Source: Desulfurellaceae bacterium bin18 (GTDB taxonomy: Bacteria; Desulfobacterota; Binatia; Bin18). Taken from it: a stretch of 64,000 nucleotides of DNA. The position numbers were made by a program, and so were the translations under genes. Below the pieces are notes generated by a model. That model did not search any database, had not been told where the DNA came from, and saw only the letters and a program-made list of their open reading frames with translations. The DNA is taken from positions 62,001 through 126,000 of the forward strand of contig MPMI01000003.1 of the NCBI GenBank assembly GCA_002238415.1, read 5' to 3'. Below are positions 1,519 to 56,451 of the stretch, one piece after another (within the stretch, counting starts at the first letter, position 1; each line of letters starts with the position of its first letter).

Positions 1519-3050
1519 GCCATCCGGTTGAGCATATACTGAGGGGCCATCTCCCGGTCCAGATACTGATTCAAGAACTCGACACACACCGGACGGCATT
1601 GACGGAAGAGGTCGGCCCGCTGAAGGTCCTGGGCGGTCGGCGGCTGAGCCGCGGCCTCGCGGAGCTGAGCGAGCAGGTCTGCCTTGTTGAAACGCAAGTG
1701 CGTGCGGTTTTCCATGACCAGCTCACCGTCAATAATGACGGTCTCCACATCCGTCCCCTTGGCCCGGTAGACAAAGGCATCAGCCATATGGATGTTAGGC
1801 GCGAGATACGGCTGGGTCATGGTTTGCAGATTCACCAGAATGATATCCGCGGCCCGGCCCGGTTCAATCCTGCCGATAGCGTCCGCTCGCAGGGTTGCCC
1901 GCGCCCCGTTCAGCGTGGCCATACGCATGACGTCATGCGGGCTGACCCAGGGCGAGGTCGGACGTGGCAGGCGGTGCAGCTTGGAGACCAGACGTAGTTC
2001 CTGGACCATATCGTCATCATCGTTGAGCGTTCCGCCATCCGTCCCAACTCCGATATTGACGCCGCGTTCGTGCATAAAAGCCACCGGGGCGATACCGCTC
2101 CGGAGACGCAGATTCGAGCTGGCGTTGTGGCACACCGTCACCCCGGTCTCGGCCAGGAGGTCCAGGTCGTACCGCGTTGTCCAGACGGCATGGGCAAAAG
2201 ATGTGCGGGGACCGAGCAGATGCATATCGTGCAGCCAGGCAATATTGCTCTTGCCGTAATGCTTAAAGAAGTATTCGGCCTGATACGGCGTTTCGACGAC
2301 ATGCAGGTGGAGCCCCCGCCCCTGTTGGACCTGCTCCCCAATCGCTTCGAGAATGTCCGGTGTTGTCCAGACGGCGTTAATCGGCCCGTAGAGAATCTTG
2401 ACCTTGGCCACACCCTCTTGATTGCGTTCGGCATAATACTTCTCGACAAGGTTCAGATAGGTATCGCGGTCTATGGGCGGACGGGCCTTCAGCGTGGCTT
2501 CGACCTGTTTGCGCAGCGGCGCGCTCAGGTGTTGCAGAAACCAGTCGTCGTCATAGGCAAACGGATGCTGGTTCATCACCTCAAGCGCCAGGGCAACCCG
2601 CTGCCCCGAGGTCTCATAGGCTTTGAGCGTCGCGTTGACCTCGTCCTCGTAGTTCCCCGTTCGGCAGAAATGACTGTGCAGGACCGTCGTCACCCCGGAC
2701 TCAAGCAGCTTCATATTGCCGTAGAGCGTGTCCAGATAGACGTTGGTCGGGGATTTGAGCATCAGCAGGTCGTATATCCACGGTTCCAGGGTATCGTCCA
2801 GCGCGCCCTGCTGGATCGCGCTGAGCCCCCAACCGTGATGATGCACGTCTATCAGGCCGGGCAGAACGAGATGTTCGTTCGACCCGACCTCCCGGTAGTC
2901 GGGGTATTGCTTTTTGAGCGCGCTATAATTCCCCACCGCAGCAATACTGGTCCCGGTCACCGCAACGGCTGCGTCCCGCACCACAGCCGTTTTTTCTCCT
3001 GGCTGGGCTGGGTTGAGGAGATATTTTCCGTGTACGAGTAGGTCGGCCAT
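1515..3050 (-). CDS. Amidohydrolase family protein (chlorohydrolase/deaminase type)
   Basis: Metal-dependent hydrolase of the TRZ/ATZ-SsnA-guanine deaminase-like group, 511 residues. Visible metal ligands are the DVHHHGWG motif after strand 1 (HxH), LHLHVVET and FAHAVW (His ligands of the barrel) and GVGTDGGTLNDDDDM (the catalytic Asp region). The C-terminal IIDGELVMENR returns to the composite beta-sandwich of the family. Such enzymes deaminate or dechlorinate ring compounds or cleave cyclic amides; the substrate cannot be read from sequence. It lies 16 bases downstream of the acetamidase and overlaps the amine oxidase start by four bases, so the three genes are one operon, consistent with successive attack on a nitrogen compound. 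Confidence 0.88.
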   Translation of the reverse strand: MADLLVHGKYLLNPAQPGEKTAVVRDAAVAVTGTSIAAVGNYSALKKQYPDYREVGSNEHLVLPGLIDVHHHGWGLSAIQQGALDDTLEPWIYDLLMLKSPTNVYLDTLYGNMKLLESGVTTVLHSHFCRTGNYEDEVNATLKAYETSGQRVALALEVMNQHPFAYDDDWFLQHLSAPLRKQVEATLKARPPIDRDTYLNLVEKYYAERNQEGVAKVKILYGPINAVWTTPDILEAIGEQVQQGRGLHLHVVETPYQAEYFFKHYGKSNIAWLHDMHLLGPRTSFAHAVWTTRYDLDLLAETGVTVCHNASSNLRLRSGIAPVAFMHERGVNIGVGTDGGTLNDDDDMVQELRLVSKLHRLPRPTSPWVSPHDVMRMATLNGARATLRADAIGRIEPGRAADIILVNLQTMTQPYLAPNIHMADAFVYRAKGTDVETVIIDGELVMENRTHLRFNKADLLAQLREAAAQPPTAQDLQRADLFRQCRPVCVEFLNQYLDREMAPQYMLNRMA

Positions 3051-3066
3051 GGGCGTACTCCTGTCG

Positions 3067-4059
3067 CTAAAAGGCCGCGGTCAGCCGTTCCTTGGGATAT
3101 TCCGCCCCGACAACGTGTTCGATGGTGAGCGCCCGGACCATCTGATAGGTCCGCACCCGGAAAGCGGGGTCGCAGGACATGCGGATATACATGTCCTGCG
3201 GCCTGATGTCGTAGTCTTCACGCAGCCATTCGAGCATATTCTGGGCCGCGTCGTACACGGCCTGCTCCATGGGCCGGTTAATGCCCACCGCCACAATACT
3301 GTCGGGCTTGTCAATCCGCACGCAGGGCAGGCGTTTATTCTTCACCACGCTACAGCTCAACTGCACGGTGGCGCGGGTTTCGTCGGCAATGCCGGTAAAC
3401 TCGGTGTCTCCCTGGCCGCCGTGAATATCGCCGATATATAGCAGACCGCCCGGATTATAGGAGTTCAGATAGATCGTATGTCCGGCGCAAATATCGCGAC
3501 AATCGATATTGCCGCCAAAGGGGCCCTGTCCGAGGAGAGACGTGAAGACTTCCCGCTCCGGTGCGGTTGCCAGCGTGCCGCAAAAGGGCTGGAGGTCCCA
3601 GGTCAGCTTATCGGAATAGACACCCTTGCCGTCACGGGTATAGCCACTCGGTCCGGGTAAATGCTCAATCACCTGTACCCGTGCCTGAGAACATTGCCCG
3701 TCAAACAGGGTCGAGTTTCCATATGGGCCAATGCCGGGCAGAATGCCGGAAAAGCCGTAGCGCCAGGGATCGATAAAGTCGATATGTACGGCCAGTACGT
3801 CACCCGCCTCGCAGCCTTCTATATAAACCGGTCCGACAACGGGATTGTATTTTGGCGGATAGGCGACCGCGAGCGCGGCAACATGGGGGTCATCCACAAA
3901 CTGGTGGACAACCGGGTTATCACTGGCGTCCTCAATCAAGCCCGACAGTGCATCCTCGGTCTCCACCTGGAAGACTTCACCGGCCTGGACCCGCAGGACG
4001 GGCTCGTCCCGGTTATCGAAGGCGAATTTGGTTACCTCGCCGCGTTGGATTTTTTGCAT
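3067..4059 (-). CDS. Acetamidase/formamidase family protein
   Basis: Hydrolyses short amides (formamide, acetamide) to ammonia and the acid. The 330-residue protein has the family hallmarks: an N-terminal beta strand region (RVQAGEVFQVETEDA), VYIEGCEAGDVLAVHI, a glycine-rich GQGPFGGNIDCRD segment and IGDIHGGQGDTEFTG, typical of FmdA/AmdA. The start at 4059 is chosen because an AGGAGGAAGGCT ribosome site sits directly before ATG; an ATG 16 codons upstream lacks a comparable site. It heads a leftward operon with an amidohydrolase and an amine oxidase, and faces a divergent RidA-type gene across 116 bases that must hold both promoters. Confidence 0.9.
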   Translation of the reverse strand: MQKIQRGEVTKFAFDNRDEPVLRVQAGEVFQVETEDALSGLIEDASDNPVVHQFVDDPHVAALAVAYPPKYNPVVGPVYIEGCEAGDVLAVHIDFIDPWRYGFSGILPGIGPYGNSTLFDGQCSQARVQVIEHLPGPSGYTRDGKGVYSDKLTWDLQPFCGTLATAPEREVFTSLLGQGPFGGNIDCRDICAGHTIYLNSYNPGGLLYIGDIHGGQGDTEFTGIADETRATVQLSCSVVKNKRLPCVRIDKPDSIVAVGINRPMEQAVYDAAQNMLEWLREDYDIRPQDMYIRMSCDPAFRVRTYQMVRALTIEHVVGAEYPKERLTAAF

Positions 4060-4175: not shown

Positions 4176-5486
4176 ATGAAAAAAGAAGCTATCTTTCCTG
4201 AGTCCCTTCCCTTGCCGCGCGTCGCCTACTCCCCTGCCGTTAAGGCTGGCCCGTTTGTCTTTATATCCGGACAATTGGCGTCGGATTTCAAAACCGGCAT
4301 CCCACCAGAGGCCGCTATTAATCCGAACTTTCCCAATCATGGACTCAATATTGAACGACAAGCCAGCTACATTGCCGACAATCTCCGCCTTACGCTTGAG
4401 GCGGCGGGCTCCTCTTTGGAACAATGTGTCTCATTGACGCTCTACCATACAGACGCACATGAGTTGCACGGCGCTGCCCAGGTCTTGCGACAGACTTTTG
4501 GCGCAATGGGCGTGCCGCCGCATACGTCCGTTATTTTAGAGGAACTGCCTGTGCCGGACTGTACGCTTGAGGTTGACCTTGTCGGCTTTGTCTCGGAAAC
4601 CGGTCAGCGTCCGGAGATTATTCAGGCCGCATCCCTGCCTCAGCCTGTCATACAGGGGCTTAATGGCCAAGCCCTGTACCAGTACGGGGTCAAGGCCGGG
4701 GAATTTATCTTTACTACGGGTATGACGGCCACCGACTTTTCAGCAGGGGTTGCGCCCGAAGCCCAGGTTGATCCCAACTTCCCCTACTATGCCGAGAGCG
4801 CCCGCTTGCAAACCGAATACATTCTTGAAGCACAGCAAGCAGTTCTTCAGGCCGCTGGTGCTTCGCTTGCGGATGTTGTCAAGGCGGAAGTCTATATGAC
4901 CGACATACGGGACTTTTACCGACTGGAACAGATATGGAAAAAATACTTTCCAACAGACCCGCCTGCCCGGACAACCGCCCCGGTCAGCGACCTCGGCGTT
5001 CCAGGGTTACGGATCGCCATCAACCTCATTGCGTATTCTCCGCAAGGCGGACCAGCAAAGCGGACTATCCGGACTGACGCTGCACCAATACCGCTGGCCC
5101 ACGAGCCACAAGCTGTCCAGGCTGGCCCCTTCCTCTTTTTCTCAGGTCAGATGGCCACCGACTACCGCACCGGAATTCCAGCAGAAGCGCGTATTGATCC
5201 CAATTTCCCGTACTACGCTTCCGCCGCAGAAAAGGGAATCAATTATGTTGTGAAGAATATTGATGCTATCTGCGCGGCCGCCGGCACATCGCGTGACTAT
5301 CTCCTGCGCAGGCGCGGATTTTATACCGACTTTGGCGAGTTTTTTACCTCGTTTGTGACGTGGGCCGAATCCTTTCCAAATGATCCACCGGCAAGTACCA
5401 CAGTGCGTGTCCCCGGCCCCCTACTCGTTCCAGGCTGCAAGGTCGTGATTGATTTAATAGGAATGGTTCCGGACGAGAGCGCATAA
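4176..5486 (+). CDS. Triple-domain RidA/YjgF-like protein
   Basis: Three successive RidA (YjgF/UK114) domains in one 436-residue chain, roughly residues 1-140, 150-290 and 300-436. Each repeat shows the same pattern: a 'G.F.F.SGQ/TG' strand, a PEA.(V/I)(N/D)PNFP turn, a helix with a leading aromatic residue and a closing TVxVPGL/VPGC-type strand. RidA proteins hydrolyse reactive enamine/imine intermediates released by amine- and amino-acid-metabolising enzymes. That suits its position divergent from an amidase-amidohydrolase-amine oxidase operon. The start at 4176 has AAAGGAGG with ideal spacing; an upstream ATG at 4119 lies in the shared promoter region. The first domain is the most diverged in its loop (PNFPNHG) and some domains may be structural only. 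Confidence 0.85.
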   Translation: MKKEAIFPESLPLPRVAYSPAVKAGPFVFISGQLASDFKTGIPPEAAINPNFPNHGLNIERQASYIADNLRLTLEAAGSSLEQCVSLTLYHTDAHELHGAAQVLRQTFGAMGVPPHTSVILEELPVPDCTLEVDLVGFVSETGQRPEIIQAASLPQPVIQGLNGQALYQYGVKAGEFIFTTGMTATDFSAGVAPEAQVDPNFPYYAESARLQTEYILEAQQAVLQAAGASLADVVKAEVYMTDIRDFYRLEQIWKKYFPTDPPARTTAPVSDLGVPGLRIAINLIAYSPQGGPAKRTIRTDAAPIPLAHEPQAVQAGPFLFFSGQMATDYRTGIPAEARIDPNFPYYASAAEKGINYVVKNIDAICAAAGTSRDYLLRRRGFYTDFGEFFTSFVTWAESFPNDPPASTTVRVPGPLLVPGCKVVIDLIGMVPDESA

Positions 5487-5642: not shown

Positions 5643-6143
5643 TCACTCCGTCGGTGTCTTCTCCCCGTCATACCACCACGGCCGGACTTTGAATTTCTCT
5701 CCACCCCAGCCCTCATGCAGTGGAACCATGAAGTCCGTACCAATGACTTTCTCCGTAAATTTCCACTCCCCTTCAACACGGAGCAGCTTGTCTTCGTAAA
5801 ATCCGGCAACAACGACAGATTCGCCCTTCAGATCGCCGACCGCATCAAAATAGCTTTTTGAAAACGCCCGATCACCGTCAAGGGTGATGACCTGGTTATG
5901 AATGAGATGCCGTAAGACCCCGAGACGATGGCGCATATAGCGTCCGTACCAGCGCTCGACGGCGGCGCGTCCTTCTCGGCGTCGGCCCGGAGGGCTGACG
6001 ATCAGGTCACACGAGTCGTGAAACAGCGCCATCACGTCTTGCAATTCCCCCCGGTCCACGGCCCAACAATAGCGATGGACCAAGTCGCGGATGGCTTCTT
6101 TTTCAACAAGCTCCCGCAGCATACGGTCTGACTCTTGCCCCAT
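5643..6143 (-). CDS. SnoaL-like/NTF2-fold protein
   Basis: A 166-residue protein of the NTF2-like SnoaL fold, recognised from the N-terminal helix pattern EKEAIRDLVHRYCWAVDRGE, then VMALFHDSCDLIVSP, and the paired strands RHLIHNQVITLDGDRAFSKSY and EWKFTEKVIGTDFMVPL. Members bind or transform small hydrophobic ligands (isomerases, dehydratases, hydroxylase subunits); no catalytic role can be assigned. The ATG at 6143 follows AAGAGGCACGC; a GTG at 6185 is a possible alternative. It is the last gene of a leftward operon with an LLM oxidoreductase, FAD oxidoreductase and amidohydrolase, so it probably serves the same catabolic route. Confidence 0.75.
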   Translation of the reverse strand: MGQESDRMLRELVEKEAIRDLVHRYCWAVDRGELQDVMALFHDSCDLIVSPPGRRREGRAAVERWYGRYMRHRLGVLRHLIHNQVITLDGDRAFSKSYFDAVGDLKGESVVVAGFYEDKLLRVEGEWKFTEKVIGTDFMVPLHEGWGGEKFKVRPWWYDGEKTPTE

Positions 6144-6206: not shown

Positions 6207-7346
6207 TTAATCAAAATGATAAATCCGAGCGGTATTGCCTCCGACAATTTTGGCCTTTTCCTCTTCGCTACAGTCCGCCAGGACGGTTTCCAGCACCTGG
6301 CGTGAATGGGGGAAGGTGCACTCCGGATGGGGGTAGTCCGAGCCCCACAGGATGTTATCCACACCGATGATATCGCGGTCCCTGATGCCGAGGGCGTCTT
6401 CCTGGAAGCTGAGGAAGACGTTCCGCCGGAAATAGTCGCTCGGCAGCATATCTTCCTTGAATTTCTGCCGGCCTCCGGTTGCCGGGCGTTGGATGAAATT
6501 ATAGTCCATCCGTTCCAGGAAATGCGGTACCCAGGCCAACTCCTGCTCGACCGACCCGATTTGGAGTTTCGGATAGCGCTCGAACACACCACTGAAAATA
6601 ATATGCGACAGCGACATGCGCACCCAGTAATCGACATTAGTCAGAAAGGCGGTGCTGACCGCCTCCAGATCGACCAGTGGCGAGTTTGGAGCGGGCCGGT
6701 TGGTCGCAATATGCAGGCTCAGCGGCAGGCCCAAATCCTGGGCCGCGGCCCACAGCGGTTCGTACTCGGGGGAATCATAGCTATGTCCCTCCAACGGGTA
6801 GACCGTGATCATGGCACCGCACAACCCCAGCTTGGCGCAGCGCTCCAACTCCTTGACACTCTCCGCAACATCGTCAACATTCAGCATGGCGATGCCCTTG
6901 ATCCGCTGCGGGAAGGGCTGGCAGAACTCGGCCAGCCAGTCGTTATAGGCCCGACACAAGACGGTCAGAAGCGCACTATCCGGGATGCTGTACAGCAGCA
7001 GTCCCTGGGTCGGATAGAGCACATCGGCATCAATGCCGTCCAGGTCCAGGTCCAGGTCTTTGAGATGTTCCTCGGGGATATAGGCTCCGGGCCGTACGTT
7101 TTCCATAACGTCGCCAAACCTGAGCGAGTCCCGCTCCTCGGGCACGAAGCGCTTGCCGGCCTGTGAGCCCCCGGAGCCGCCGCCGACCCCTTTTACCCCG
7201 TCGCAGACCCACCAATCGGTATGGTCTTCCTCGCGACGAACGACATGCGGCGCCCGATCTTTGAACCGAGCGTCTACCCGGCTAGTCCATAAATCCGACG
7301 GCTCAAACACATGACTATCGGATGAAATAATTTTGTACTCAGCCAT
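6207..7346 (-). CDS. Amidohydrolase family protein (ACMSD-like)
   Basis: TIM-barrel metal-dependent hydrolase of the amidohydrolase-2 (ACMSD/gamma-resorcylate decarboxylase) type, 379 residues. The start MAEYKIISSDSHVFEPSDLW carries the SDSHV variant of the N-terminal metal motif. LSLHIATNR gives the central His, and LWGSDYPHPECTFPHS gives the C-terminal catalytic Asp with the SDYPH signature. These enzymes decarboxylate or hydrolyse aromatic or cyclic acids. The start is supported by AGGAGGGTGTAGT. It follows the FAD oxidoreductase by 21 bases. It resembles two further genes in this window (41987-43441 and 44412-45512), showing family expansion. Confidence 0.88.
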   Translation of the reverse strand: MAEYKIISSDSHVFEPSDLWTSRVDARFKDRAPHVVRREEDHTDWWVCDGVKGVGGGSGGSQAGKRFVPEERDSLRFGDVMENVRPGAYIPEEHLKDLDLDLDGIDADVLYPTQGLLLYSIPDSALLTVLCRAYNDWLAEFCQPFPQRIKGIAMLNVDDVAESVKELERCAKLGLCGAMITVYPLEGHSYDSPEYEPLWAAAQDLGLPLSLHIATNRPAPNSPLVDLEAVSTAFLTNVDYWVRMSLSHIIFSGVFERYPKLQIGSVEQELAWVPHFLERMDYNFIQRPATGGRQKFKEDMLPSDYFRRNVFLSFQEDALGIRDRDIIGVDNILWGSDYPHPECTFPHSRQVLETVLADCSEEEKAKIVGGNTARIYHFD

Positions 7347-7367: not shown

Positions 7368-8552
7368 TTAGATCACATTGAGTTCTTGCAGCGGTCGGCT
7401 CGCAATGACGCGTTCAAACCCGAGCGGCGAGATGTCAATCGTCCGGTATGCGCCATGCACGATCAGTTCGGCAATCCCGCGACCAACGCCAGGAGCCTGC
7501 TGGACCCCGTGGCCGGAAAAGCCGTTGACAAAGAGGAAGTTGGTTATCACGGGATGCCGGCCCACAATGGCATTCTGGTCGAGTGTGTTATAGGCGTAAT
7601 GCCCGCTCCAGGCAGAGACCTGCTTGATCGCCTCAAAAATGGGAACGCGATGCGCCAAGGCCGGCCAGACAATCTCGTCGAACAGCTGATACTCAACCCG
7701 AAAATCTTCCGTCGGGGGGTCCTGGTCTGCCGGCGGAGACACTCCACACACGAAATACTGGCCTTCGGGCCGGAAATAGACGCCGGAGACATCCACGACC
7801 AGGGGGCAGGGTTGCAGCGCACCGGCCTGCCGACAATCGAACACGAACACACACCGTTTCCGACTTTCGACCGGCAGCTCGATATCGGCCATACGAGCGA
7901 TCTTCCCGGCGGCCGGACCGGCAGCATTCACAAGTTCCCCACACGAAAAGACCCGTCCGTCGGCGAGTTGTACAGACTCCAGACGCTGCCGCGCAACATG
8001 CAGCCCAACGACCTCTCCGGTGAGAAACTCGGCGCCCCGTGCTACGGCCGTGTTGCGGAGCGCGTACAGCAGGCTATGTGCATCAAACCAGCCTTCCCCG
8101 GACAGCCCGAGGCAACCGGCAGCCAGGTCCGAGGTTGCGAGCCACGGGAAACGCGCCTGCAATTCGGCAGGACCCAGCAGACAGACATCCGCGCCCTGCC
8201 GGGTTTGGACCCCCGCGTTGTGGTCGAGAACGGCTTTCCCTTGCTCGCTCGCCAGCAACAGATAGCCCGCCTCCCGAAAGCTAACCTCGACATCCGCCCC
8301 CAGGCGGTCTTTGACGGTCCGCAGGAACTCTACCCCAAACTGAGACAGGTGAATATTCACCGGGGTCGAGAACTGCTGCCGAATCGAGGCTAAAGAGCGC
8401 GTCGTTGAACAGTACTGGTAGGAGGGATCTTTTTCGATGACGAGCACGCGGCCCTGAAAGTCCTCGTCCGCGGTGAGAAAATAGGCGACGGCGCTGCCAA
8501 TAATGGCTCCACCAACAATGACAACATCGTACCCGGCACTCCGCTTTGCCAT
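7368..8552 (-). CDS. FAD-dependent oxidoreductase (DAO family)
   Basis: D-amino-acid oxidase/sarcosine oxidase-type flavoprotein, 394 residues, expected to oxidise a secondary amine or amino acid. The Rossmann motif VVIVGGAIIGSAVAYFL is near residues 8-24, VIEKDPSYQYCSTTRS follows the second strand, and the C-terminal FLFVNGFSGHGVQQAPGVGR closes the FAD site. The start at 8552 places the Rossmann motif at the usual distance. Two in-frame alternatives (ATG at 8573, GTG at 8594) lie inside a perfect 16-bp inverted repeat that abuts the chosen ATG. No strong Shine-Dalgarno precedes any of them. Part of the operon with the LLM gene upstream and the amidohydrolase downstream. Confidence 0.82.
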   Translation of the reverse strand: MAKRSAGYDVVIVGGAIIGSAVAYFLTADEDFQGRVLVIEKDPSYQYCSTTRSLASIRQQFSTPVNIHLSQFGVEFLRTVKDRLGADVEVSFREAGYLLLASEQGKAVLDHNAGVQTRQGADVCLLGPAELQARFPWLATSDLAAGCLGLSGEGWFDAHSLLYALRNTAVARGAEFLTGEVVGLHVARQRLESVQLADGRVFSCGELVNAAGPAAGKIARMADIELPVESRKRCVFVFDCRQAGALQPCPLVVDVSGVYFRPEGQYFVCGVSPPADQDPPTEDFRVEYQLFDEIVWPALAHRVPIFEAIKQVSAWSGHYAYNTLDQNAIVGRHPVITNFLFVNGFSGHGVQQAPGVGRGIAELIVHGAYRTIDISPLGFERVIASRPLQELNVI

Positions 8553-8677: not shown

Positions 8678-9583
8678 CTACGTCGCTTCCATCTCAGCCT
8701 CGGCGGCAATTTTTCCCAAGATGGCAGCCATCTCGCCAGGCTCGGACACAAACGACGGAAAGTCAAGGATCAACCGGCTCACGCCCAGGCGTTCCCAGCC
8801 CGGCAGGTCTTTGAGGACGCCCTCGGCCGTACCGGCGATAATCACCGCGGTAATCTCTATGGTCGAGAAGTCACGACCCGCCTCATCACACATTTGCCTG
8901 AGCGTCTGCAAATCCTTGGCCAGGTCGCCCTCGGTGCTATACACGTCGTCGGGATGCTCGGAGACGACCTGCCAGCCGTCAGCCATGCTCACCACACGGC
9001 GGAGGCCAGCCCGCCCGCGCCCGCCGATCGTAATCGGTGGGTGCGGCTTTTGTAGCGGCTGAGGCCGACACTGGACATCCGTAAACCGGTGATACTCACC
9101 CTCAAAGCGCGGCTCCTCGGCCGTCCAGAGTTCTTTCCAAATCTGGATATGCTCGTCCGTGCGCGTCCAGCGTTTGGCAAACGGGACCTCCAGGGCCTGG
9201 AACTCCTCTTCCAACCAGCCGCTGCCCACGCCGACAATCAGCCGGCCATTTGACAGCACATCCAACGAGGCCAGCATCTTGCCCGTCACCACCGGATGCC
9301 GGTACGGCGCCACGATTACGGTAAACCCCAGCCGCACCCGGCGGGTGCAGGCCGCCACAAACGACAGCACGGTAAACGGCTCCAGATGGGCGCCCTTGGG
9401 ATCAGCGATGTAACGACCCGACTTGCTGTAGGGGTACGGGGTATCGATCTTGGTCGGCATGATAACGTGGTCGGGTGCCCAGATCGACTCGAAGCCGCGG
9501 TCTTCGGCGAGTTGGGCCATGGCCAGCATATTCTCATGGGTCGCCATCGCGCCAAATGCGGGCAGCATAAAACCGATTTTCAT
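8678..9583 (-). CDS. LLM class F420-dependent oxidoreductase
   Basis: Luciferase-like monooxygenase-fold protein, 301 residues, of the F420-dependent subgroup. It begins MKIGFMLPAFG, has SIWAPDHVIMP (substrate/cofactor strand), the HPVVTGKMLASLDVLSNGR helix and GVGSGWLEEEF, which are standard for this group. Such enzymes use reduced F420 or FMN to reduce or oxidise diverse compounds; the substrate is unknown. The ATG at 9583 has GGGAGAC upstream. It is the first gene of a four-gene leftward operon. An NADPH:F420 reductase gene elsewhere in the window (58215) supports F420 as the cofactor. Confidence 0.88.
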   Translation of the reverse strand: MKIGFMLPAFGAMATHENMLAMAQLAEDRGFESIWAPDHVIMPTKIDTPYPYSKSGRYIADPKGAHLEPFTVLSFVAACTRRVRLGFTVIVAPYRHPVVTGKMLASLDVLSNGRLIVGVGSGWLEEEFQALEVPFAKRWTRTDEHIQIWKELWTAEEPRFEGEYHRFTDVQCRPQPLQKPHPPITIGGRGRAGLRRVVSMADGWQVVSEHPDDVYSTEGDLAKDLQTLRQMCDEAGRDFSTIEITAVIIAGTAEGVLKDLPGWERLGVSRLILDFPSFVSEPGEMAAILGKIAAEAEMEAT

Positions 9584-38715: not shown

Positions 38716-39630
38716 CTACCCTTTCGGCTTGACCATCTTGAAAACTTTACGGATCACAGCCGAGGCATTCTCATACGGTGCTGCCTCGCCCATGTCCGTA
38801 ATCTCCGTATAGCGCTCACGAATCTGATCCGGCTGTGGAGTCGTCTCGGTGTCAAACAGCACCCCGGCCGCTTCCCGGACTTCTATCTTGGCGTAATAGC
38901 CTGCCCCGGCCTGGATGATATGCCCGGAGTCCGTATTGTCGGGCGCACACAGCCAGGCGACCGCGGCAGTGACAAACTCGGGTTTCATCAACGGCGCATA
39001 TTGCGGGGTGGTGGCCGGTTCGGACATGCGCGTCAACGCAATCGGGGCAATCGCATTGACGGTGATATTATAGCGCCGGCCCTCTTCCTTGAGGGAGTTC
39101 ATGAGCCCAATCAGGGCCATTTTCGCCGTCCCATAGTTGGTATGGCCGTGATTGCCGTACAGGCCGGCGGACGACGTAGTCATCACAATACGGCCAAAAC
39201 CCTTCTCGCGCATAATGGGCCAGGCCGCGTGGGTACAATAGACTGCCCCCATGAGATGCACGTCAATCAGCGACCGAAAATCATCCAGGTCCATTTTGGC
39301 AAAGCTTTTATCCCGCACGTTTCCCGCGTTGTTAATCAGGATGTCCACCGTACCAAAAGCGTCCAGCGCAGTTTGGATGATACGCTGCCCGCCCTCTTCG
39401 GTGGCAACCGTATCGTAGTTCGCCACCGCCTCCCCACCCGTGGCTTTAATCTCTTCAACAACCGCATCAGCCACAGCCCGCGAGCCCCCGGTTCCCGCGA
39501 CCGTTCCTCCAAGATCGTTCACCACCACCTTCGCCCCACGCGAAGCGAGGAAGAGAGCGTGGCTTTTCCCCAGGCCATTACCCGCGCCGGTGATGACGGC
39601 GACTTTATTGTCAAAACGGATGTTGTTCAT
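38716..39630 (-). CDS. SDR family oxidoreductase (17beta-HSD4-like)
   Basis: Short-chain dehydrogenase, 304 residues, NAD(P)-dependent. VAVITGAGNGLGKSHALFLA is the cofactor motif with Gly-rich loop, ILINNAGNVRDKSFAKMDL follows, and the catalytic pattern is TSSAGLYGNHGHTNYGTAK (Ser, Tyr, Lys). The length and the extra C-terminal tail (about 50 residues beyond a 250-residue core) match the hydroxyacyl-CoA dehydrogenase domain of peroxisomal multifunctional enzyme type 2. It probably oxidises a 3-hydroxyacyl-CoA. It is divergent from the reverse transcriptase. Confidence 0.88.
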   Translation of the reverse strand: MNNIRFDNKVAVITGAGNGLGKSHALFLASRGAKVVVNDLGGTVAGTGGSRAVADAVVEEIKATGGEAVANYDTVATEEGGQRIIQTALDAFGTVDILINNAGNVRDKSFAKMDLDDFRSLIDVHLMGAVYCTHAAWPIMREKGFGRIVMTTSSAGLYGNHGHTNYGTAKMALIGLMNSLKEEGRRYNITVNAIAPIALTRMSEPATTPQYAPLMKPEFVTAAVAWLCAPDNTDSGHIIQAGAGYYAKIEVREAAGVLFDTETTPQPDQIRERYTEITDMGEAAPYENASAVIRKVFKMVKPKG

Positions 39631-39743
39631 GCGTCATTTCCTCTCTGGGATACATGTATCAAGTGGAGCAGAAAAAAGAGAAACCTAAGTGTAGAATAGA
39701 GCCTCCTCTCAATGAAGGGAGACGCGTAACGCTGCGGTACAAG

Positions 39744-39769
39744 GACTTTAACGTTTTCGAGTTGAAGTC
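39744..39769 (+). ncRNA. Candidate stem-loop in the AT-rich leader of the reverse transcriptase
   Basis: The 228 bases between the SDR gene start and the reverse transcriptase ATG have no convincing gene. GACTTTAAC at 39744-39752 pairs with GTTGAAGTC at 39761-39769 (nine pairs, one G-U), with an eight-base loop. A second near-palindrome AAGAGTCTCTT lies nearby, downstream. Several reverse-transcriptase defence systems use a structured non-coding RNA just upstream of the gene, so this is a candidate template region. No expression evidence. Confidence 0.3.
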
Positions 39770-39858
39770 TCTATACAAGAAAGAGTCTCTTGCCTTAGAT
39801 CGATGCAACCTTGGGACTATCTCTTTGTGTACATGGTTAAGATAGGCAATTAGGGAAT

Positions 39859-41763
39859 ATGAATAAGCTTTGGAACGAACTGCTTAAAGTAAAAATACTT
39901 AAGCGAGGTTGGCACATTGCAAGACTCGATACCAAACAAGATTTCGCAGAAGATCTCTTTTCAACTGATATTTATGGATTAGACCTAGACCTACGAATTA
40001 GTGAGACTATCAACCGTCTGAGTACGGACACCTACCAACCACGTCCGTTACTCCGAATGGATGTACCGAAAGGCACACTGGGATTTCGGCCAGGAGCGGT
40101 TATTCCAATACAAGATCGAGCGGTCGTCTCAGCTATAGTTTTCGTAATGGCGGAGGAGGTTGATAAGCAACTTCCAGATTCTGTCTATAGCTGGCGGCTA
40201 AAAAAGCCTGCCCCCAAGAGTGGCTCAATATTTCAGGAAACGGACATAGCTGACATCCCATTTCTAAAGAAGTCAACTATCAGGAAACAGATTGACCCAT
40301 TCGAGTCATGGTATGAAGTATGGCCTGATTTTGACAAACAATCCCGGGAAACTTTTCTTGACGAAAAGTATAGATATTTAGCAACCTCAGACATAGCGGC
40401 ATATTTTGAAAATATCCAACTTCCTATCCTTCGAGATCAACTCTTGCAACTATTTCCCGAAGAGTCGCGCATCGTAAATCTCCTATTCTCGTTTTTAGAA
40501 TCCTGGGCACCGAGGACATCCGACGGACGCACGCATCTTAGAGGAATTCCGCAGGGGAATGCGGTCTCAAGTTTTCTTGGGAACCTCTTTCTTCTCCCAC
40601 TTGACCTTATATTCAAGGACTTTGAGGCAAAACGGGACATCCGTTATTTTCGCTACATGGATGATGTCCGAATCTTTTCCCAACGGATAGAAGATGCCCG
40701 ACTTGCTATTTTCACCATGGACAGAGAATTGCGCCGCCTACACCTGAATGTACAGACAGCGAAAACGAAAATACTTGACCAGCGGAGAGGCGAAATCAGT
40801 CATACCCTCATTGATGAACGGGTTGAGGAGATTTCAGATATCCTCGAAGAAATTGAGCAAAAATGGCACTCAAAAGAGATCCCTGATCGCGAGCGAGACA
40901 AATATTTAAAACGGTTGAATAGTATTGCGCACAGGCAGGACGGTCCAAAACAGAAGATATTGGGAAGTAGAGGGCCACTCGAAGGGTTGTCGACTCGCGT
41001 GTTTCTACGATGGATAAACGTGCATTGCTCTCTAAAGAGTGACTTATTCGTAAGACGACTTTTACACGAAATTGAGCAGAATTCAGACTACAGAATCACA
41101 CGAAAGCTTTTACGAGCCACCCGACTATTTCCTCGTAGGCCAGGAATAGAAAGGGCAGTTATTCATTTCCTCAAATCAGACAAAAATATCTTTCCTCATC
41201 AAGAGGCCGAGTGCTTACGTGCCCTTCGTTATCTAAGCCGTATTCAAGAAGATACTATATCTCATTGTAAGAGCCGACTTTTCGACGAAAATCAGGATCC
41301 ATATGTTCGGATGCAGGCATCTTATTTAATAGCTCGAACTGAGATTTCCCTCTCGATGCTCACCCAGATTGAAGAACTCTTCGATCGCGAAAAAAATCCA
41401 TACATTCAAGTCTCTCTTTCTATGATCCTTGTCCAAAAGCGGAGTGACAATTCTGAAACGATAAGAAAATTCCTTCTACATCCAAACGAAAAGGTCAGTG
41501 ATATCGGCAAATTGTATCAGTCCACAAAAGACGACATTGCAATAGCGAACGCACATTTAAATCATATGTTTCGAGAAGAAACTCTTTGGCTACTTTGCGA
41601 CAATATGCCATTCGTCCATGTAATGGCTGCCTCAGAAGATCGAGCGATCCGGGAGCGATTACTGAACGCTATTCGGACCCCTAGATTAAGCCATCCAGTC
41701 GTAGGTATCCGAGATATCCTCAGAAAAGTATTTACGCGTACAAGAGAATCGCTTAATACCTGA
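39859..41763 (+). CDS. Reverse transcriptase, unknown-group type, with C-terminal HEAT-like repeats
   Basis: A 634-residue stand-alone reverse transcriptase. Fingers: LLRMDVPKGTLGFRPGAVIP and IQDRAVVSAIVF (residues 64-95). Palm: motif A ATSDIAAYFENI with Asp178, motif B RGIPQGNAVSSFLGN (228-242), motif C YFRYMDDVRIFS with the YMDD box at 266-269, and motif D-like ELRRLHLNVQTAKTKI (290-305). From about 400 the chain is helical with HEAT-like units (DPYVRMQASYLIARTEISLS, NPYIQVSLSMILVQ). No integrase, maturase X domain, endonuclease or retron msr/msd is seen. This resembles unknown-group and abortive-infection RTs (UG/DRT, AbiK/AbiA-like). The gene and its flanks are visibly AT-richer than neighbours, suggesting transfer. 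AGGGA lies close to the ATG. Confidence 0.85.
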   Translation: MNKLWNELLKVKILKRGWHIARLDTKQDFAEDLFSTDIYGLDLDLRISETINRLSTDTYQPRPLLRMDVPKGTLGFRPGAVIPIQDRAVVSAIVFVMAEEVDKQLPDSVYSWRLKKPAPKSGSIFQETDIADIPFLKKSTIRKQIDPFESWYEVWPDFDKQSRETFLDEKYRYLATSDIAAYFENIQLPILRDQLLQLFPEESRIVNLLFSFLESWAPRTSDGRTHLRGIPQGNAVSSFLGNLFLLPLDLIFKDFEAKRDIRYFRYMDDVRIFSQRIEDARLAIFTMDRELRRLHLNVQTAKTKILDQRRGEISHTLIDERVEEISDILEEIEQKWHSKEIPDRERDKYLKRLNSIAHRQDGPKQKILGSRGPLEGLSTRVFLRWINVHCSLKSDLFVRRLLHEIEQNSDYRITRKLLRATRLFPRRPGIERAVIHFLKSDKNIFPHQEAECLRALRYLSRIQEDTISHCKSRLFDENQDPYVRMQASYLIARTEISLSMLTQIEELFDREKNPYIQVSLSMILVQKRSDNSETIRKFLLHPNEKVSDIGKLYQSTKDDIAIANAHLNHMFREETLWLLCDNMPFVHVMAASEDRAIRERLLNAIRTPRLSHPVVGIRDILRKVFTRTRESLNT

Positions 41764-41986
41764 GCCTTCACTTCCCAGGGAACAGCTCACCTCATCAATT
41801 TTCTCCTCTTCTATCCATTTTCACCACAGACTCCGTCATTATTATTTGTGTAATTACTGATGGAAAAGAAGCTGGCAAAACAGGTGACAGACCTTCTCCA
41901 CGGCAACATATTTTCCCCTCCCCCCGATCCTGCTACAAAAACAATTCGATCATATTGCATTTTCCGTTACGCCAAGGAGGGAGCCG

Positions 41987-43441
41987 ATGTCGTCACACCA
42001 GACAGCCGAGCATATTCACTCACAACTGAGCCATCCGGTTATTGACTCAGACGGTCACTGGATCGAGTTTGAGCCTGCGGCCATGGATTATTTGAAAGAA
42101 GTCGGTGGAGATAGTGTGGTTGAGCGCTATAGCAAGGTGGCTAACCAGTTTGGCAATAAGAAATGGGCGGGCCTCTCAGAAGAGGAGCGTAAGGACCGGC
42201 GTATGCTCCAGCCCGCCTGGTGGGGGGTGCCGACCAAGAATACGCGCGACCGTGCGACCGCGATGCTGCCCAAGCTGCTGTACGAGCGCCTGGACGAACT
42301 CGGCATCGACTTTGGGGTAATCTACCCGACCGGTGGCGCGCTGTTTGCGCCGTTTCTGCGCGATGACGAAATTCGCCGGGCGGCCTGCCGCGCGTTTAAT
42401 ATGTATACCGCCGATCAGTTCAAGGGCCTGGAAGACCGCCTAACTCCCGCAGCGGTGGTACCGATGTTCACCCCGGAGGAGGCGGTTGAAGAACTGGAGT
42501 TCATCAAGAGCAAAGGCTTTAAGGTGGCCATGCTGTCGAGCCTCATCCGGCGGCAGGTTCCGGCGGTGGCGCGCAAAGCGCCCGAGGCTGGCCGTTATGC
42601 AATCTGGCACGACACCCTGGGCATAGACAGCGAGCATGATTATGACCCGGTCTGGGCGAAATGCCTCGAAGTGGGTATCCCGCCCAGCTTTCACTCGGCC
42701 TCGTCAGGCATTGGGATGAGGGCCTCGATTTCCAATTTTGTGTACAACCATATCGGCCATTTTGCCCAGGCCGGAGAGGCGGTGTGCAAATCCATCTTCA
42801 TGAACGGCGTGACGCGGCGTTTCCCGGAGCTGCGCTTTGCCTTTTTGGAAGGCGGCGTGGGCTGGGCCTGTGGCCTGTATAGCGACCTCATCGGCCACTG
42901 GAAAATTCGCAATCCCAAGGCCCTGGATAACGTAAATCCTGCCAATCTGAACCAGGAAATGCTAGTCGATTTGTTCCAGAAATATGGCCCGCCCGCGGCG
43001 GTGGAAAAGCTGGGGCAGAAGGCGACGCAGGCCCATCTCGGCCTGCTGACCAAAGAGCCGGAAAAGCTGGACGATTTTGCGCCCTGCGGGATCGAGCGCG
43101 CCGAGGACATCCGCGACCTGTTTGTGCCGAATTTCTACTTTGGCTGCGAGGCCGACGACCCGCTGAACGCCTGGGCTTTCAACACCACAGTCAATCCGTA
43201 TGGTGCCAAGATCAACGCGCTGTTTGGCTCGGACATCGGTCACTTCGATGTGCCGGACATGGCCGGCGTGTTGCCCGAGGCGTATGAGGGCGTTGAGGAC
43301 GGGGTAATGACAGAGGATCATTTCAGGGATTTTGTGTTCGCGAATCCCGTCCGCTTCTGGAGCGCCGTCAACCCGGACTTCTTTACGGGAACGGTGGTGG
43401 AGTCACAGGCGCGGGCGTTGGTGGCGGAGGGGGCTGCTTAG
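41987..43441 (+). CDS. Amidohydrolase family protein
   Basis: A 484-residue metal-dependent hydrolase of the ACMSD-like group. HPVIDSDGHWIEFEP has the DSDGHW form of the first metal motif, FLEGGVGWACGLYSDLIGHW is the barrel segment with a Gly-rich loop, and LFGSDIGHFDVPDM holds the C-terminal catalytic Asp. The long 40-residue insertion near 240 (GRYAIWHDTLGIDSEHDYD) is distinctive. The start at 41987 follows AAGGAGGGAGCCG. Its stop region overlaps the MBL gene on the other strand by four bases. Two minus-strand operon neighbours are also hydrolases. Confidence 0.85.
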   Translation: MSSHQTAEHIHSQLSHPVIDSDGHWIEFEPAAMDYLKEVGGDSVVERYSKVANQFGNKKWAGLSEEERKDRRMLQPAWWGVPTKNTRDRATAMLPKLLYERLDELGIDFGVIYPTGGALFAPFLRDDEIRRAACRAFNMYTADQFKGLEDRLTPAAVVPMFTPEEAVEELEFIKSKGFKVAMLSSLIRRQVPAVARKAPEAGRYAIWHDTLGIDSEHDYDPVWAKCLEVGIPPSFHSASSGIGMRASISNFVYNHIGHFAQAGEAVCKSIFMNGVTRRFPELRFAFLEGGVGWACGLYSDLIGHWKIRNPKALDNVNPANLNQEMLVDLFQKYGPPAAVEKLGQKATQAHLGLLTKEPEKLDDFAPCGIERAEDIRDLFVPNFYFGCEADDPLNAWAFNTTVNPYGAKINALFGSDIGHFDVPDMAGVLPEAYEGVEDGVMTEDHFRDFVFANPVRFWSAVNPDFFTGTVVESQARALVAEGAA

Positions 43442-50714: not shown

Positions 50715-51326
50715 ATGACGAAGAAACTACGGTCACTCGCATGTGCAACGGCACTGCTTTTGTTTTCTTGCTCTCCGCCTGTTGTTAAATACTCAGTCCC
50801 ACCGCCTAAACTGAACACGTTCACACTCCTGATTGAACAGGACTATGATACTGTCTGGAGGGCACTTATTGACCATGTTTCCCAATCCTCTTTTGCGATT
50901 AGCAACTTTGAAAAAGACTCTGGCCTTATCACCTTAACGTTCAGCGCATCGCCCGATACCTATGTTGACTGTGGAGACTGGAATGTTCAAGGAAATGCAC
51001 TCGTCCCGGCCTTTCAAGGTTCCTACGTACAATGGCTGGAGAAGCACTCCTCAGTCAGCCTGTCGGGAAAAATGAATGTCAGTGTTTACAGGATGACTGA
51101 AGCCGTGACACGAATCAGAGTCAATGCGCGCTATATCTTGACGAGTACTTATATGGGAGGAGACACTCCTATAACCAATACGTGGACGTTTGATTCAGGT
51201 TCTTCCGCTTCGGTTCCAGTCAATAACCCGACCCGAGGAATTACCCCAACTCGAACATGTCGGCCTACCTATCAAGCGGAATCTGATATTCTGGAGGCCG
51301 TTAAAGTGCTCTCAGGAAACACTTAG
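50715..51326 (+). CDS. Lipoprotein of unknown function
   Basis: A 203-residue lipoprotein: signal ACATALLLFSC with lipobox LLFSC, so the mature N-terminal Cys is residue 19. The body (LLIEQDYDTVWRALIDHVSQ, ISNFEKDSGLITLTFSASP, WLEKHSSVSLSGKMNVSVYR) resembles the small alpha-beta lipoproteins of the NlpC/BamC-like style, but no family is assigned. AAGGGA precedes the ATG. It precedes the DUF6615-like gene by 17 bases and is probably cotranscribed. Confidence 0.7.
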   Translation: MTKKLRSLACATALLLFSCSPPVVKYSVPPPKLNTFTLLIEQDYDTVWRALIDHVSQSSFAISNFEKDSGLITLTFSASPDTYVDCGDWNVQGNALVPAFQGSYVQWLEKHSSVSLSGKMNVSVYRMTEAVTRIRVNARYILTSTYMGGDTPITNTWTFDSGSSASVPVNNPTRGITPTRTCRPTYQAESDILEAVKVLSGNT

Positions 51327-51343
51327 AGAGGAATTGAAGAATA

Positions 51344-52279
51344 ATGGCCGAAAGTACCGTCGCCGAAAGAATTGCCGAAAGCACCTGGAATCGACTGCGC
51401 GGAGCCCAACGACTACGCGAAGATCGCCTGTATGTTCGTCTGGGAGAGGAGACGCTTACGGATTTGCTGGTTCTCGATTTCTTGGTATCCGCACCGAATA
51501 ACATCAAGTTTGTCCAGACGACCAAATCCCAAGAGGCCGTACAAGGAACGGATTTGGTTGTTTTCGTACGTCGGAACGCGAACAGGGCTGACATATACGC
51601 CGTTCAGGCAAAAAAACTCGGTGTTGCGGGGCGATACGATAGCCTGAACCACCGGTCTGGCAACAGGCATCAGATCAATGTCCTTGAAGACTATGCAGGG
51701 GAATCAAAAGCCATTCCGCTGTATCTCTTGTTCAATCACGTTGATGATGAAGACTTAAAAGCTGAATATTGGCATTGTTGTCAGCAAACCGACAAAAGGC
51801 AATTCGGCTGTACGTTGGTGCCAAGTTGGCGTATTCGGGATGCGATTTCAAAGCGCGGATATCGCACCTTCGACTATATACATTCAGACCGGGCTGCCTT
51901 GCCTTGGCGATGTGCTTTCGCCTGCCCGAATAACCCCACGGCATGGGGTCGAATTCGGGAAAAGGTTAAAGAAAGTCGTCACGAGCGTTTCTCTCAGAAT
52001 CTTCCGTCTTCCGAAGAGGCCGAGCTAAGAATCGCAAGAGACCGTCAAACGATCCTCCCTAATTCTTCCCTCTCTTATGACCAATATGAAGACGTGGATT
52101 TTAGTAGTGGAGCAGGAGAATGGCCAAGTGACTCATGGGATAGCAAAACCTCCTCCCTATCGGCTGAAGAGACGATGCAGTTATATAGAGCGCCAACTTC
52201 TCAGGACGCTGAGCTAGAGATATCTCGCCCCATGTTCCTCCCGCGTTGGATCATGCTGGTGAATGGTGACGACAGCTAA
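51344..52279 (+). CDS. DUF6615-like putative PD-(D/E)xK nuclease
   Basis: A 311-residue protein. The N-terminus (STWNRLRGAQRLREDRLYVR, ETLTDLLVLDFLV) and the core KSQEAVQGTDLVVFVRR, then ADIYAVQAKKLGVAGRYDSL, give a Glu, a Gly-x-Asp and a QxK motif. That is a PD-(D/E)xK arrangement in its QAK variant, and matches the uncharacterised DUF6615 family. PLYLLFNHVD follows. No partner methylase is present. Its stop codon TAA (52277-52279) is the first part of the 8-bp target duplication of the IS1595-family element, so the element inserted exactly at the end of this gene without breaking it. Confidence 0.65.
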   Translation: MAESTVAERIAESTWNRLRGAQRLREDRLYVRLGEETLTDLLVLDFLVSAPNNIKFVQTTKSQEAVQGTDLVVFVRRNANRADIYAVQAKKLGVAGRYDSLNHRSGNRHQINVLEDYAGESKAIPLYLLFNHVDDEDLKAEYWHCCQQTDKRQFGCTLVPSWRIRDAISKRGYRTFDYIHSDRAALPWRCAFACPNNPTAWGRIREKVKESRHERFSQNLPSSEEAELRIARDRQTILPNSSLSYDQYEDVDFSSGAGEWPSDSWDSKTSSLSAEETMQLYRAPTSQDAELEISRPMFLPRWIMLVNGDDS

Positions 52280-54164: not shown

Positions 54165-55115
54165 CTACCCCACCAACTCCTGACACAGCAACCGCCGCCC
54201 CACGCAGCCCACCGCCACATGCGCCATCTGGTCCATCGTCCCGGCTTCCCGGATATTCTGCCGGCCAGAGAACTCATCCACATAGCGCTGTAAGTGCTTC
54301 TCACTCATCTTGTGGTAGGTGCCGATATAGCCCCGCTTCAACATGCTCCAGAAGGATTCAATGCCCTGCGTGTGGGCCTGATCCCGGACATATTCCTTGA
54401 CGCTATGCTTCACAGACTCGTGATTCGACAACCCTACATAGCCCGGATGATCGTCCGTGTAGATCGTCGCTCCTGGCTCAATGTGGTCGTGGACAAACCC
54501 CTGGAGGGTAGGTTGATCGGTCTGCGGTATGACCTCGGCATTCACCTGTTTGGTGTCTCGATCCTTCATGCCGATGACAGCGGTCTTGCTCACCGGCCCG
54601 CGCCCGGCCTTGAGCTTTTTGCTGGTATGCTTGTTCTTCTCTTTCCCCCCCATATACGTCTCATCGACCTCAACAGGTCCCGCAAATAACGAGGCCCGGC
54701 CCTTGAGCGCCTTACGGATACGATGGGCCATAAACCAGGCCGATTTCTGCGTAATGTCAAGATCGCGGTGGAGCCGCATACTGCTGACGCCCTTCAAATT
54801 GGTGACGTACAGATACAGCGCAAACACCCACTTTTGCAGGGGGATATGCGAGCGGGCTAAGACAGTCCCCGTCCGCACCGAGAAATGCTTGCGACAGGTC
54901 CGACAGCGATAGGGTTGCGGCTTCTTGTCTTTACACGCGGCAATGTTGGTGCTGTCACACTTGGGGCAGACCATCCCATCCGGCCAGCGTTGCGCTTCAA
55001 ACCAGCGCTCAGCGGATTCTTCATCCGGGAACAGCTTGGTCAACTGGATCAGGGAGACGCCCGAACGGTACGCCTTCCCCGGTCCAGCCTTACTCACTCG
55101 TTGTGTGTCGTCCAT
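54165..55115 (-). CDS. IS1595-family transposase
   Basis: DDE transposase, 316 residues. The N-terminal zinc ribbon has Cys50, Cys53, Cys71 and Cys74 (CPKC...CRTC). The catalytic domain shows VEVDETYMGGKEKNKH (Asp151), IYTDDHPGY (Asp221) and HTQGIESFWSMLKRG (Glu253), which is the ISXO2/IS1595 pattern. The frame is complete. Located near the right terminal repeat, transcribed leftward into the 151-residue gene. Confidence 0.93.
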   Translation of the reverse strand: MDDTQRVSKAGPGKAYRSGVSLIQLTKLFPDEESAERWFEAQRWPDGMVCPKCDSTNIAACKDKKPQPYRCRTCRKHFSVRTGTVLARSHIPLQKWVFALYLYVTNLKGVSSMRLHRDLDITQKSAWFMAHRIRKALKGRASLFAGPVEVDETYMGGKEKNKHTSKKLKAGRGPVSKTAVIGMKDRDTKQVNAEVIPQTDQPTLQGFVHDHIEPGATIYTDDHPGYVGLSNHESVKHSVKEYVRDQAHTQGIESFWSMLKRGYIGTYHKMSEKHLQRYVDEFSGRQNIREAGTMDQMAHVAVGCVGRRLLCQELVG

Positions 55116-55171: not shown

Positions 55172-55366
55172 GCCACACCTTCCAGTACGTCTTCGCTATG
55201 AAAAAACCGCCTCCAACTTCTTGGCGCTTATTAAACTCGTGACCGTGCGTCCGTGACTCCAAACTAATACACAACCTGGTTCCCCAGGCTGAGTATTATT
55301 GATCTAATCAAATTTCTGGAGTTTATCAGTTCTGAAATTGCCGTTTCTTGAAATGGAGTGTGCTAC

Positions 55367-56451
55367 ATGAGCTTCCCCACCTATACCGACTTTATGGCAA
55401 TTGATTGGTTTTTTGGTTGTTGCTACGTCCCCGGAATAATCAAGATGCTTATGAAAGCGAATCCCGCGTTAGACGCGAAGCGCTTACACAACGTATATTC
55501 TGGATTGCCTAGATTCGAAGATGCCGAGCTCGAAAATGTTCCCAATCGGGTGATCAGTATATCTACTGATCCGGTAAAAACATGCACTTACTTTGACATG
55601 GGCGCTGACTATCTTCAGCGCCCTCTTGACTTGTCTGTTGCATGTTTCGACCCTGAGGTCCTAACTAAATATTCGATACATAGAGACAAATACCGGCTAG
55701 ATTATGGTGTAAGTGGCGATGGATGGCACTTGCGAGATGTTGACATTAACGATGTGGGGCAAGTCCACGCTTGCATCTGCGACCTCCAAACGTTGCCGTC
55801 AAAGGAGCAACTCTATTGGAAATCCCACAACGTTGAACCTAAGTGGTTGCCCAACACCCCTATATCCAAGACAGCTTTTCGAGGGATATCGCAGGTATTT
55901 GTTAGTAGATGTTTATTCAATCGTCGGCCAAAAGAATCGGAGTTGCCGCCCCACGTACTTATAGAATTCATATTGCAGGAGTGGGAAAGCAAAAAGGTCA
56001 GTTGGTGGACGTTGAGGGATGAATCTCTATTTAGCGCAGTCTCCTACCTATTGCCGATATCCAGTTCTACGGAATGGATGATTGCTTTCAAAAATCTAGC
56101 AAAGCTGGTTGTCGAAGGTTTTGAGGTTAAGGAGATTCGAAGCCGAGTAGATTCCAAGAAAATATCTTACGATAAAAAGGATAAAAGCCTGACAAAAAAA
56201 AGGATAAAGGCCTGCCCTTGTGGGGGCTTCTGAGGTTATCCGTAGAGGGCTTGAAAGAAGTCAGTGCTATAAGAAACATGGATGCACACTTCTTAGGGAA
56301 GCCCGCCACAAATCGGGCACAGGAGGCGGTAGAGAGGTACGGATCATATAGGGTTCATTTTGCGGCCGTTTGCCAAAAGGTAGTCAAAGAACTGAAAGAT
56401 ATTCAAGGATGCTTAACCACTGGTAACGTAGACGAGGCCAGGATGGGCTGA
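55367..56451 (+). CDS. Protein with a HEPN-type RNxxxH motif, split by an A8 frameshift
   Basis: Two overlapping frames look like one gene. The first runs from ATG 55367 (GGAG eight bases before) to TGA at 56233: YTDFMAIDWFFGCCYVPGII, VISISTDPVKTCTYFDMGAD, DGWHLRDVDINDVGQVHACI; no known family. At 56194-56201 is a run of eight A. A -1 shift there continues as KDKGLPLWGLLRLSVEGLKE then VSAIRNMDAHFLGKPATNRA and ends at 56451. RNMDAH (56272-56289) matches the Rx4-6H (RNxxxH) motif of HEPN ribonucleases. In total about 360 residues. It could be a programmed or slippage frameshift, a true mutation or an assembly error. AT-rich and unlike its neighbours. Confidence 0.6.
56194..56201 (+). promoter_or_regulatory. 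A8 slippery tract at the frame change
   Basis: Zero-frame codons read ACA AAA AAA AGG. A_AAA_AAA fits an X_XXY_YYZ-type slippery heptamer, and A8 also permits polymerase slippage. A G-rich segment (TGCCCTTGTGGGGGC) lies 13 bases downstream and can fold. Confidence 0.45.

Follow-up and report, generated by a model that had tools for sequence, protein, structure and literature searches.

The window analysed here is a stretch of 64,000 nt from Desulfurellaceae bacterium bin18 (assembly GCA_002238415.1, contig MPMI01000003.1, positions 62,001-126,000 of the forward strand), and coordinates given without a locus number refer to it. At 39859-41763, on the plus strand, it contains an open reading frame (ORF) of 634 aa with the intact palm motifs of a reverse transcriptase (RT), exactly as an earlier note on this DNA had described it. 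The gene starts with ATG, and its frame is open for at most 6 codons further upstream (open frame of 640 aa). Its neighbours in the window are metabolic genes. The features of the region are as follows.

38716-39630, minus strand: SDR-family gene (by eye), conserved left neighbour of the slot
39643-41900, no strand assigned: acquired insert of about 2.26 kb with the RT as its only gene (breakpoints against same-genus genomes)
39643-39858, plus strand: 5' leader within the insert, 216 nt (fold z -0.38 against shuffles; no Rfam family)
39859-41763, plus strand: UG21-group reverse transcriptase gene, 634 aa (ORF, PADLOC RT_UG21, RVT_1, AlphaFold model)
39859-40791, plus strand: RT core, fingers and palm, about residues 1-311 (alignment; structural matches over residues 1-320)
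40237-40284, plus strand: flexible fingers loop, residues 127-142, pLDDT below 50 (model, alignment)
40390-40392, plus strand: catalytic Asp178 in motif A, SDIAAYFENI (direct reading; invariant in 16 sequences)
40540-40572, plus strand: motif B, RGIPQGNAVSS, residues 228-238 (direct reading, alignment)
40654-40665, plus strand: catalytic YMDD, residues 266-269 (direct reading; Y266, D268 and D269 invariant)
40984-41757, plus strand: C-terminal helical domain of HEAT/ARM/alphaRep type, residues 376-633 (model, structure comparison, alignment)
41764-41900, plus strand: 3' part of the insert, 137 nt (fold z -0.23 against shuffles)
41987-43441, plus strand: amidohydrolase-like gene (by eye), conserved right neighbour of the slot

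The catalytic triad of the window RT (D178, D268, D269) is intact, and these three residues and Y266 are invariant in an alignment of 16 UG21 proteins that includes the window RT. A Pfam search of the protein returns RVT_1 (E 1.4e-15), with all other matches sub-threshold. The AT-richness that had been claimed for the gene is borne out: its GC content is 43.6% and its GC3 41%, against a GC3 of 68-73% in two flanking genes. Promoter-like matches are at chance level (5 against 4.3 expected). (Other AT-rich ORFs of unknown function, with 45-50% GC, lie elsewhere in the window at 50715-52279 and 55358-56233, near a transposase-like ORF at 54165-55115; the ORF at 51344-52276 has no PADLOC match.)

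The limits of the insert were obtained by comparison with six genomes of the same genus (G001-G006). Outside the insert the window is 91-97% identical to these genomes, with the right flank kept in all six and the left flank in most; the sequence match breaks at 39629/39642 and at 41901-41908 against G001 and G003-G005, and the right breakpoint is also seen against G002 and G006. None of the six genomes has a UG21 match. In G004 the same slot is only about 157 bp long. In the other five genomes (L092, L093, L094, L095, L097) it is filled by a DUF433-type gene together with addiction-module genes of the HI1420-like/HigA-like antitoxin kind, joined by a HigB-like toxin gene in G005 and G006 and, in G001, by an AAA_14/DUF4143 ATPase gene (L092 2375-3610) that PADLOC scores as the candidate defence gene PDC-S01 (E 4e-113); these gene families were assigned by HMM for the G001 proteins and by sequence likeness for the other genomes. 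The DUF433-type and antitoxin genes are absent from the window's slot and nearly so from that of G004. (The G005 slot also holds a 333-aa protein, encoded on the minus strand of L094 at 2218-3219, or 2967-3968 on the reversed locus, with no Pfam or PADLOC match.)

The site accommodates small stress- or defence-type modules, and its occupant here is the RT. To judge from the kept flanks, the abrupt ends of the sequence match and the lack of the gene in six same-genus genomes, the RT gene is a recent horizontal acquisition, which upholds the transfer that the earlier note had suspected. No target-site duplications or long repeats were found at the ends of the insert, and no integrase was identified within it.

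The best PADLOC profile for the window RT is RT_UG21, which matches residues 12-537 over profile positions 5-483 of 503 with 434.3 bits (E 1.5e-130); the runner-up, RT_UG19, reaches 187.9 bits (E 1e-55). UG21 is a named RT group (PMC8934634). In a maximum-likelihood (ML) tree of RT cores, the window RT and 15 other UG21 proteins form one clade with support 99/98, which is separate from the group II-type RTs found in this genome (L003, L004). Profile and tree identify the window RT as a full-length UG21 protein of the UG/Abi RTs, with no difference from PADLOC RT_UG21 or the myRT class UG21. The assignment agrees with the earlier reading of a stand-alone UG/DRT- or Abi-like RT and goes beyond it, since the HMM comparison with UG, DRT and Abi profiles supplies the type that had been held to lie outside what could be told by eye. 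In this tree Drt2, on a long branch, is the sole reference DRT that passed the motif filter, no Drt9 was found in the phylum, and the tree was not used to place UG21 among Class 1 versus Class 2 enzymes. The UG21 clade mixes members from Pseudomonadota, Myxococcota, Planctomycetota, Nitrospirota, Bacteroidota, Gemmatimonadota, Verrucomicrobiota and other phyla, as expected for a horizontally moving gene. A limited literature search found no published function or experimental characterisation of UG21.

Profiles for other RT types leave the window RT far below their cut-offs. It scores 29.5 bits against AbiA (TIGR04499, cut-off 250), 29.5 bits against Drt4 (NF041749, cut-off 450), 96.8 bits against the group II maturase profile (TIGR04416, cut-off 300) and at most 34.6 bits against retron profiles with cut-offs of at least 235; the NCBIfam Drt2-5 profiles are likewise far from being reached. 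The nitrilase or phosphohydrolase domain that marks the Class 3 enzymes DRT1 and DRT5 is absent from the window RT by Pfam, and its tail is instead a helical solenoid. An Rfam scan of 39000-42500 with E up to 1 found no retron or intron RNA family, and within 39560-42000 the longest direct repeat is 18 nt at 78%, with no long repeats of the kind expected of a DGR. The earlier note had reported that group II, retron and DGR parts are missing, and had named a place in a group II or retron clade, or an msr/msd or intron structure in the flanks, as grounds for abandoning its reading; these searches recover none of them.

The same genome contains further RT genes. One is a second defence RT, a full-length Drt5 (L002 1150-2631, on the 109-kb contig C39; 735.8 bits in PADLOC), and two encode RT/maturases of the group II intron type whose tails look HNH-like by eye (L003 on contig C68 and L004 on contig C5).

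An AlphaFold2 model of the window RT, built on the 16-sequence UG21 alignment, has a pLDDT of 88.6 and a pTM of 0.87. Over residues 1-320 the model matches the structures of group II, DGR, DRT and Abi RTs, and the flexible fingers loop lies shortly before the invariant W151. The helical repeat tail that had been proposed from the sequence is seen in the prediction as a solenoid of alpha-helical hairpins over residues 376-633, which when folded alone has a pLDDT of 92. The isolated tail resembles designed alphaRep, HEAT and ARM proteins (PDB comparison; Foldseek E above 0.02). Because its top PDB matches are generic alphaRep/ARM proteins rather than Abi tails, and because the Foldseek E-values are of this size, only a HEAT/ARM-type solenoid, a common fold, is claimed for it. 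The best-conserved residues of the tail, R384 (16/16) and R380 (15/16), both lie in its first helix and may contact the nascent strand. The helices at 320-391 come after the palm and possibly form a thumb-like bundle; DGR and retron chains reach about residue 397 at a poor rmsd of 6-8 Å.

Among solved structures, core plus tail is matched to about residue 580 by AbiK (7r06; 464 residues, 15-582), Abi-P2 (7r08; 391 residues, 12-583), DRT4 (9vdo; 451 residues, 12-584) and DRT6 (9wy8; 454 residues, 12-581), and AbiA (8oz7) aligns over 376 residues (2-548). The group II, DRT2 and DRT9 chains align over the RT core only (to about 320-380), with 262 residues at 2.4 Å for the group II RT 6ar3, and DGR chains align to about 397-453. 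The window RT thus shares with the Class 1 proteins AbiK, Abi-P2 and AbiA an RT core followed by a helical-repeat domain, but the structural identity is 11-15%, there is no HEPN tail, and a priming tyrosine is not identifiable. (Y59, Y152 and Y182 are conserved, but each falls within or close to a motif general to RTs, and none is therefore named as the priming tyrosine.) DRT6 and DRT4/UG15 (9vdo, 9l9s) have the same combination of RT and C-terminal helical domain, matching 451-454 residues or nearly the whole model, but each belongs to another UG group. Class 2 enzymes (DRT2, DRT9, DRT10, DRT3a) share the RT core fold and YxDD.

Relatives of the window RT were collected by an alignment-based scan of genome contigs, which gave 38 loci (a single-sequence scan of genome contigs gave none). 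This one scan, limited to two motifs, supplied the whole set of relatives, which should therefore not be read as a census. Metagenome-assembled genomes are the source of most of them, so that organism labels may err while contig-level neighbours stand. The closest relatives sit in other phyla. No relative was found in viral contigs or phage records, and on plasmids the only one is a 29%-identical haloarchaeal protein (L033 7974-9602); this distant UG21-like RT has BREX genes, an ArdC-like protein and a helicase in its vicinity. Two relatives are truncated or split: in L042 (2276-4197) the RT is divided into a 467-aa ORF and a separate downstream 115-aa ORF, and in L050 (6971-7813, the same gene as L024) it ends at 280 aa after motif B, its frame being lost before YxDD.

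Several of these relatives lie among defence genes. The RT stands between type I hsdR and hsdS in L043 and L046, directly after type I hsdR and hsdM/S in L051, and between a type IIG restriction-modification (R-M) region and a Lamassu LmuA/DUF4297 gene in L048. In L038 it lies between helicase/Eco57I R-M genes and a PDC-M41A gene, in L037 between a relaxase and an Mrr endonuclease, in L050 beside a DUF262 HEC-05 gene, and in L041 it adjoins an N4/N6 DNA methylase. No clear defence neighbour was seen in L035, L040 and L049. This association with defence is a qualitative one.

Such neighbourhoods could mean that UG21 is a defence RT coupled to neighbouring effectors or R-M systems, for instance one activated by restriction fragments, which stands alone in the window incidentally. 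The loci in which the RT is set between or after hsd genes, or among R-M genes and LmuA, speak for this coupling, but no R-M gene was seen beside the RT in the window, L034, L035, L040 or L049, the window insert holds the RT only, and the integron cassettes described below move as single genes; we regard the coupling as rather unlikely. A role for the UG21 RT in housekeeping or repair instead of defence appears slightly less probable again. Some bacterial RTs function in DNA repair, e.g. G2L4 RT, and the window RT is surrounded by metabolic genes; against such a role, the gene is patchy, being found in 0/6 same-genus genomes, its slot is variable, and its relatives are mobile and occur in defence loci, with the closest ones in other phyla.

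Two of the three closest relatives are integron gene cassettes: L036, from a Gammaproteobacteria MAG, and L034, from a Halieaceae MAG, whose RTs are 57% and 56% identical to the window RT, respectively. In L036 attC-like sites lie on both sides of the RT, at 6476-6536 and 8477-8549, and three more, at 4735-4808, 5232-5309 and 5809-5888, separate upstream ORFs on the same strand, which encode a GNAT acetyltransferase, an unknown protein and an 8xMP-like membrane protein. In L034 a boundary core GTTGGGC precedes the ORF and an attC-like site (8916-9014) follows it; the next cassettes include a HEPN protein, and a true integron integrase is found elsewhere in the genome (424 bits against a cut-off of 265). 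The attC-like sites of both loci share AACAA...CGTTRG cores, and the five L036 sites form hairpins that have extrahelical bases (z -1.5 to -5.5); the hairpin fold of the longer L034 site reaches a z of only -0.8. (These attC sites were called by direct reading, alignment and hairpin folding rather than with a validated model, automated attC finders being too insensitive.) Because the attC sites of the two RT cassettes are alike and the arrays around them differ, the UG21 gene appears to travel with its attC.

Between the RTs of L034 and L036 the protein identity is 84%, with pS 0.89 and pN 0.10 (given in place of dN/dS, which is not computable at saturated synonymous sites). This degree of protein identity, though synonymous sites are saturated, shows that the UG21 family is under strong purifying selection.

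Integrons are known reservoirs of antiphage genes (PMC12409362), and that review cites Darracq 2025, Kieffer 2025 and Getz 2025 for integron-borne antiphage cassettes. A limited literature search found no report of UG RTs among integron cassettes, and RTs do not figure among the integron systems in the same review. Like the antiphage cassettes, UG21 in L034 and L036 is a single-ORF cassette with its own attC; the window copy, unlike them, lies outside any recognisable cassette. No attC was found in the window by eye or by a script that also missed most of the L034 and L036 sites.

The integron setting also bears on the notion that UG21 is a group II intron RT that was domesticated or has degenerated, or else an attC-targeting intron, with no role in defence. 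The group II structures give high scores over the core (Z 26), the maturase profile does respond to the window RT, and group IIC introns are known to occur with integrons (PMC7923331). However, that profile score is far under its cut-off, UG21 is apart from the group II RTs in the tree, no intron RNA appears in the Rfam scan, the C-terminus is a helical solenoid, and the sister genomes are entirely without the gene. Moreover, the L036 ORF runs along the cassette strand with a separate attC site on each side, and the L034 ORF is enclosed by a boundary core and an attC. This origin is very improbable. (The group IIC introns known from integrons are distinct from these loci, in which the RT gene follows the cassette strand, has a boundary of its own on either side and does not encode a group II RT.)

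The cassettes and operons also limit the space for a partner RNA. In the L034 cassette there are 25 nt before the ORF and 10 nt after it, and in the L036 cassette 19 nt from the boundary to the ORF and 10 nt from the ORF to attC. The RT of L043 is set 11 nt behind the preceding gene and shares 8 nt with hsdS at its downstream end, and in L048 the gaps around the RT are 12 and 29 nt. Since the cassettes leave only 10-25 nt on each side, UG21 members appear to work without a cis-encoded ncRNA. (A similarity near the ORF start in L034 and L036 was considered as a conserved ncRNA and rejected, as it is the attC boundary.) A flank alignment of the window with L034-L036 revealed no conserved block. 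It is possible that a small RNA is encoded in the window's 216 nt upstream or 137 nt downstream, inside the ORF or elsewhere in the genome.

These observations are pertinent to the alternative that UG21 acts like the Class 2 DRTs, in which a flanking or trans-acting ncRNA would template repetitive cDNA that is toxic or encodes an effector. DRT2, DRT9, DRT10 and DRT3a do so (PMC13174585, PMC12632851), the RT core of the window protein aligns well to DRT9 and DRT2 (Z 22.1 and 20.3), and the window ORF is preceded by 216 nt within the insert. Class 2 enzymes need a cis-encoded ncRNA, however, and the UG21 relatives in L034, L036, L043 and L048 have no room for one on either side; furthermore, the window flanks are no more structured than shuffles and are unconserved in close relatives, and the DRT2 and DRT9 structures match the RT core only. 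A Class 2-like mechanism is unlikely, if somewhat less so than the other alternatives weighed here.

The explanation that we favour, with moderate confidence, is that the window RT is a complete single-gene defence module, an Abi/Class 1-like polymerase that was horizontally acquired. In Class 1 UG/Abi RTs an alphaRep domain is fused to the RT, and DNA synthesis is untemplated and, in the studied cases, protein-primed (PMC13174585); the helical domain is positioned at the site of the thumb (PMC11077055). Untemplated synthesis also occurs outside Class 1: DRT1 and DRT5, of Class 3, are reported to make protein-primed, template-free DNA (PMC13275509).

By analogy with these enzymes, the RT palm and fingers of the window protein would polymerise DNA, and the helical-repeat domain, in place of a thumb, would guide the single strand and perhaps drive oligomerisation. 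Synthesis would be primed on the protein itself, with neither a nucleic-acid template nor a cis-encoded ncRNA. Phage infection may then switch the enzyme on or release its DNA adducts, and the infected cell would be stopped, resulting in abortive infection. On the strength of this likeness, the UG21 RT of the window probably protects against viruses. The broader proposition, that UG21 enzymes in general are minimal antiviral polymerases that need neither an ncRNA nor a template, and that their genes spread as one-ORF mobile modules, integron cassettes among them, is put forward tentatively, at a confidence a little below even.

Within this organism, the RT stands in, in a small slot, for the toxin-antitoxin and candidate-defence modules of the sister genomes. 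For the family, the integron cassettes and overlapping operons constitute a natural experiment that bounds the functional unit of UG21 to one ORF, so that the question of RNA-templated versus self-sufficient synthesis is directly testable with a single gene. If UG21 is indeed a minimal, ncRNA-free antiviral polymerase that also travels in cassettes, integrons would bank defence RTs, and the group would represent a compact DRT sufficient in itself.
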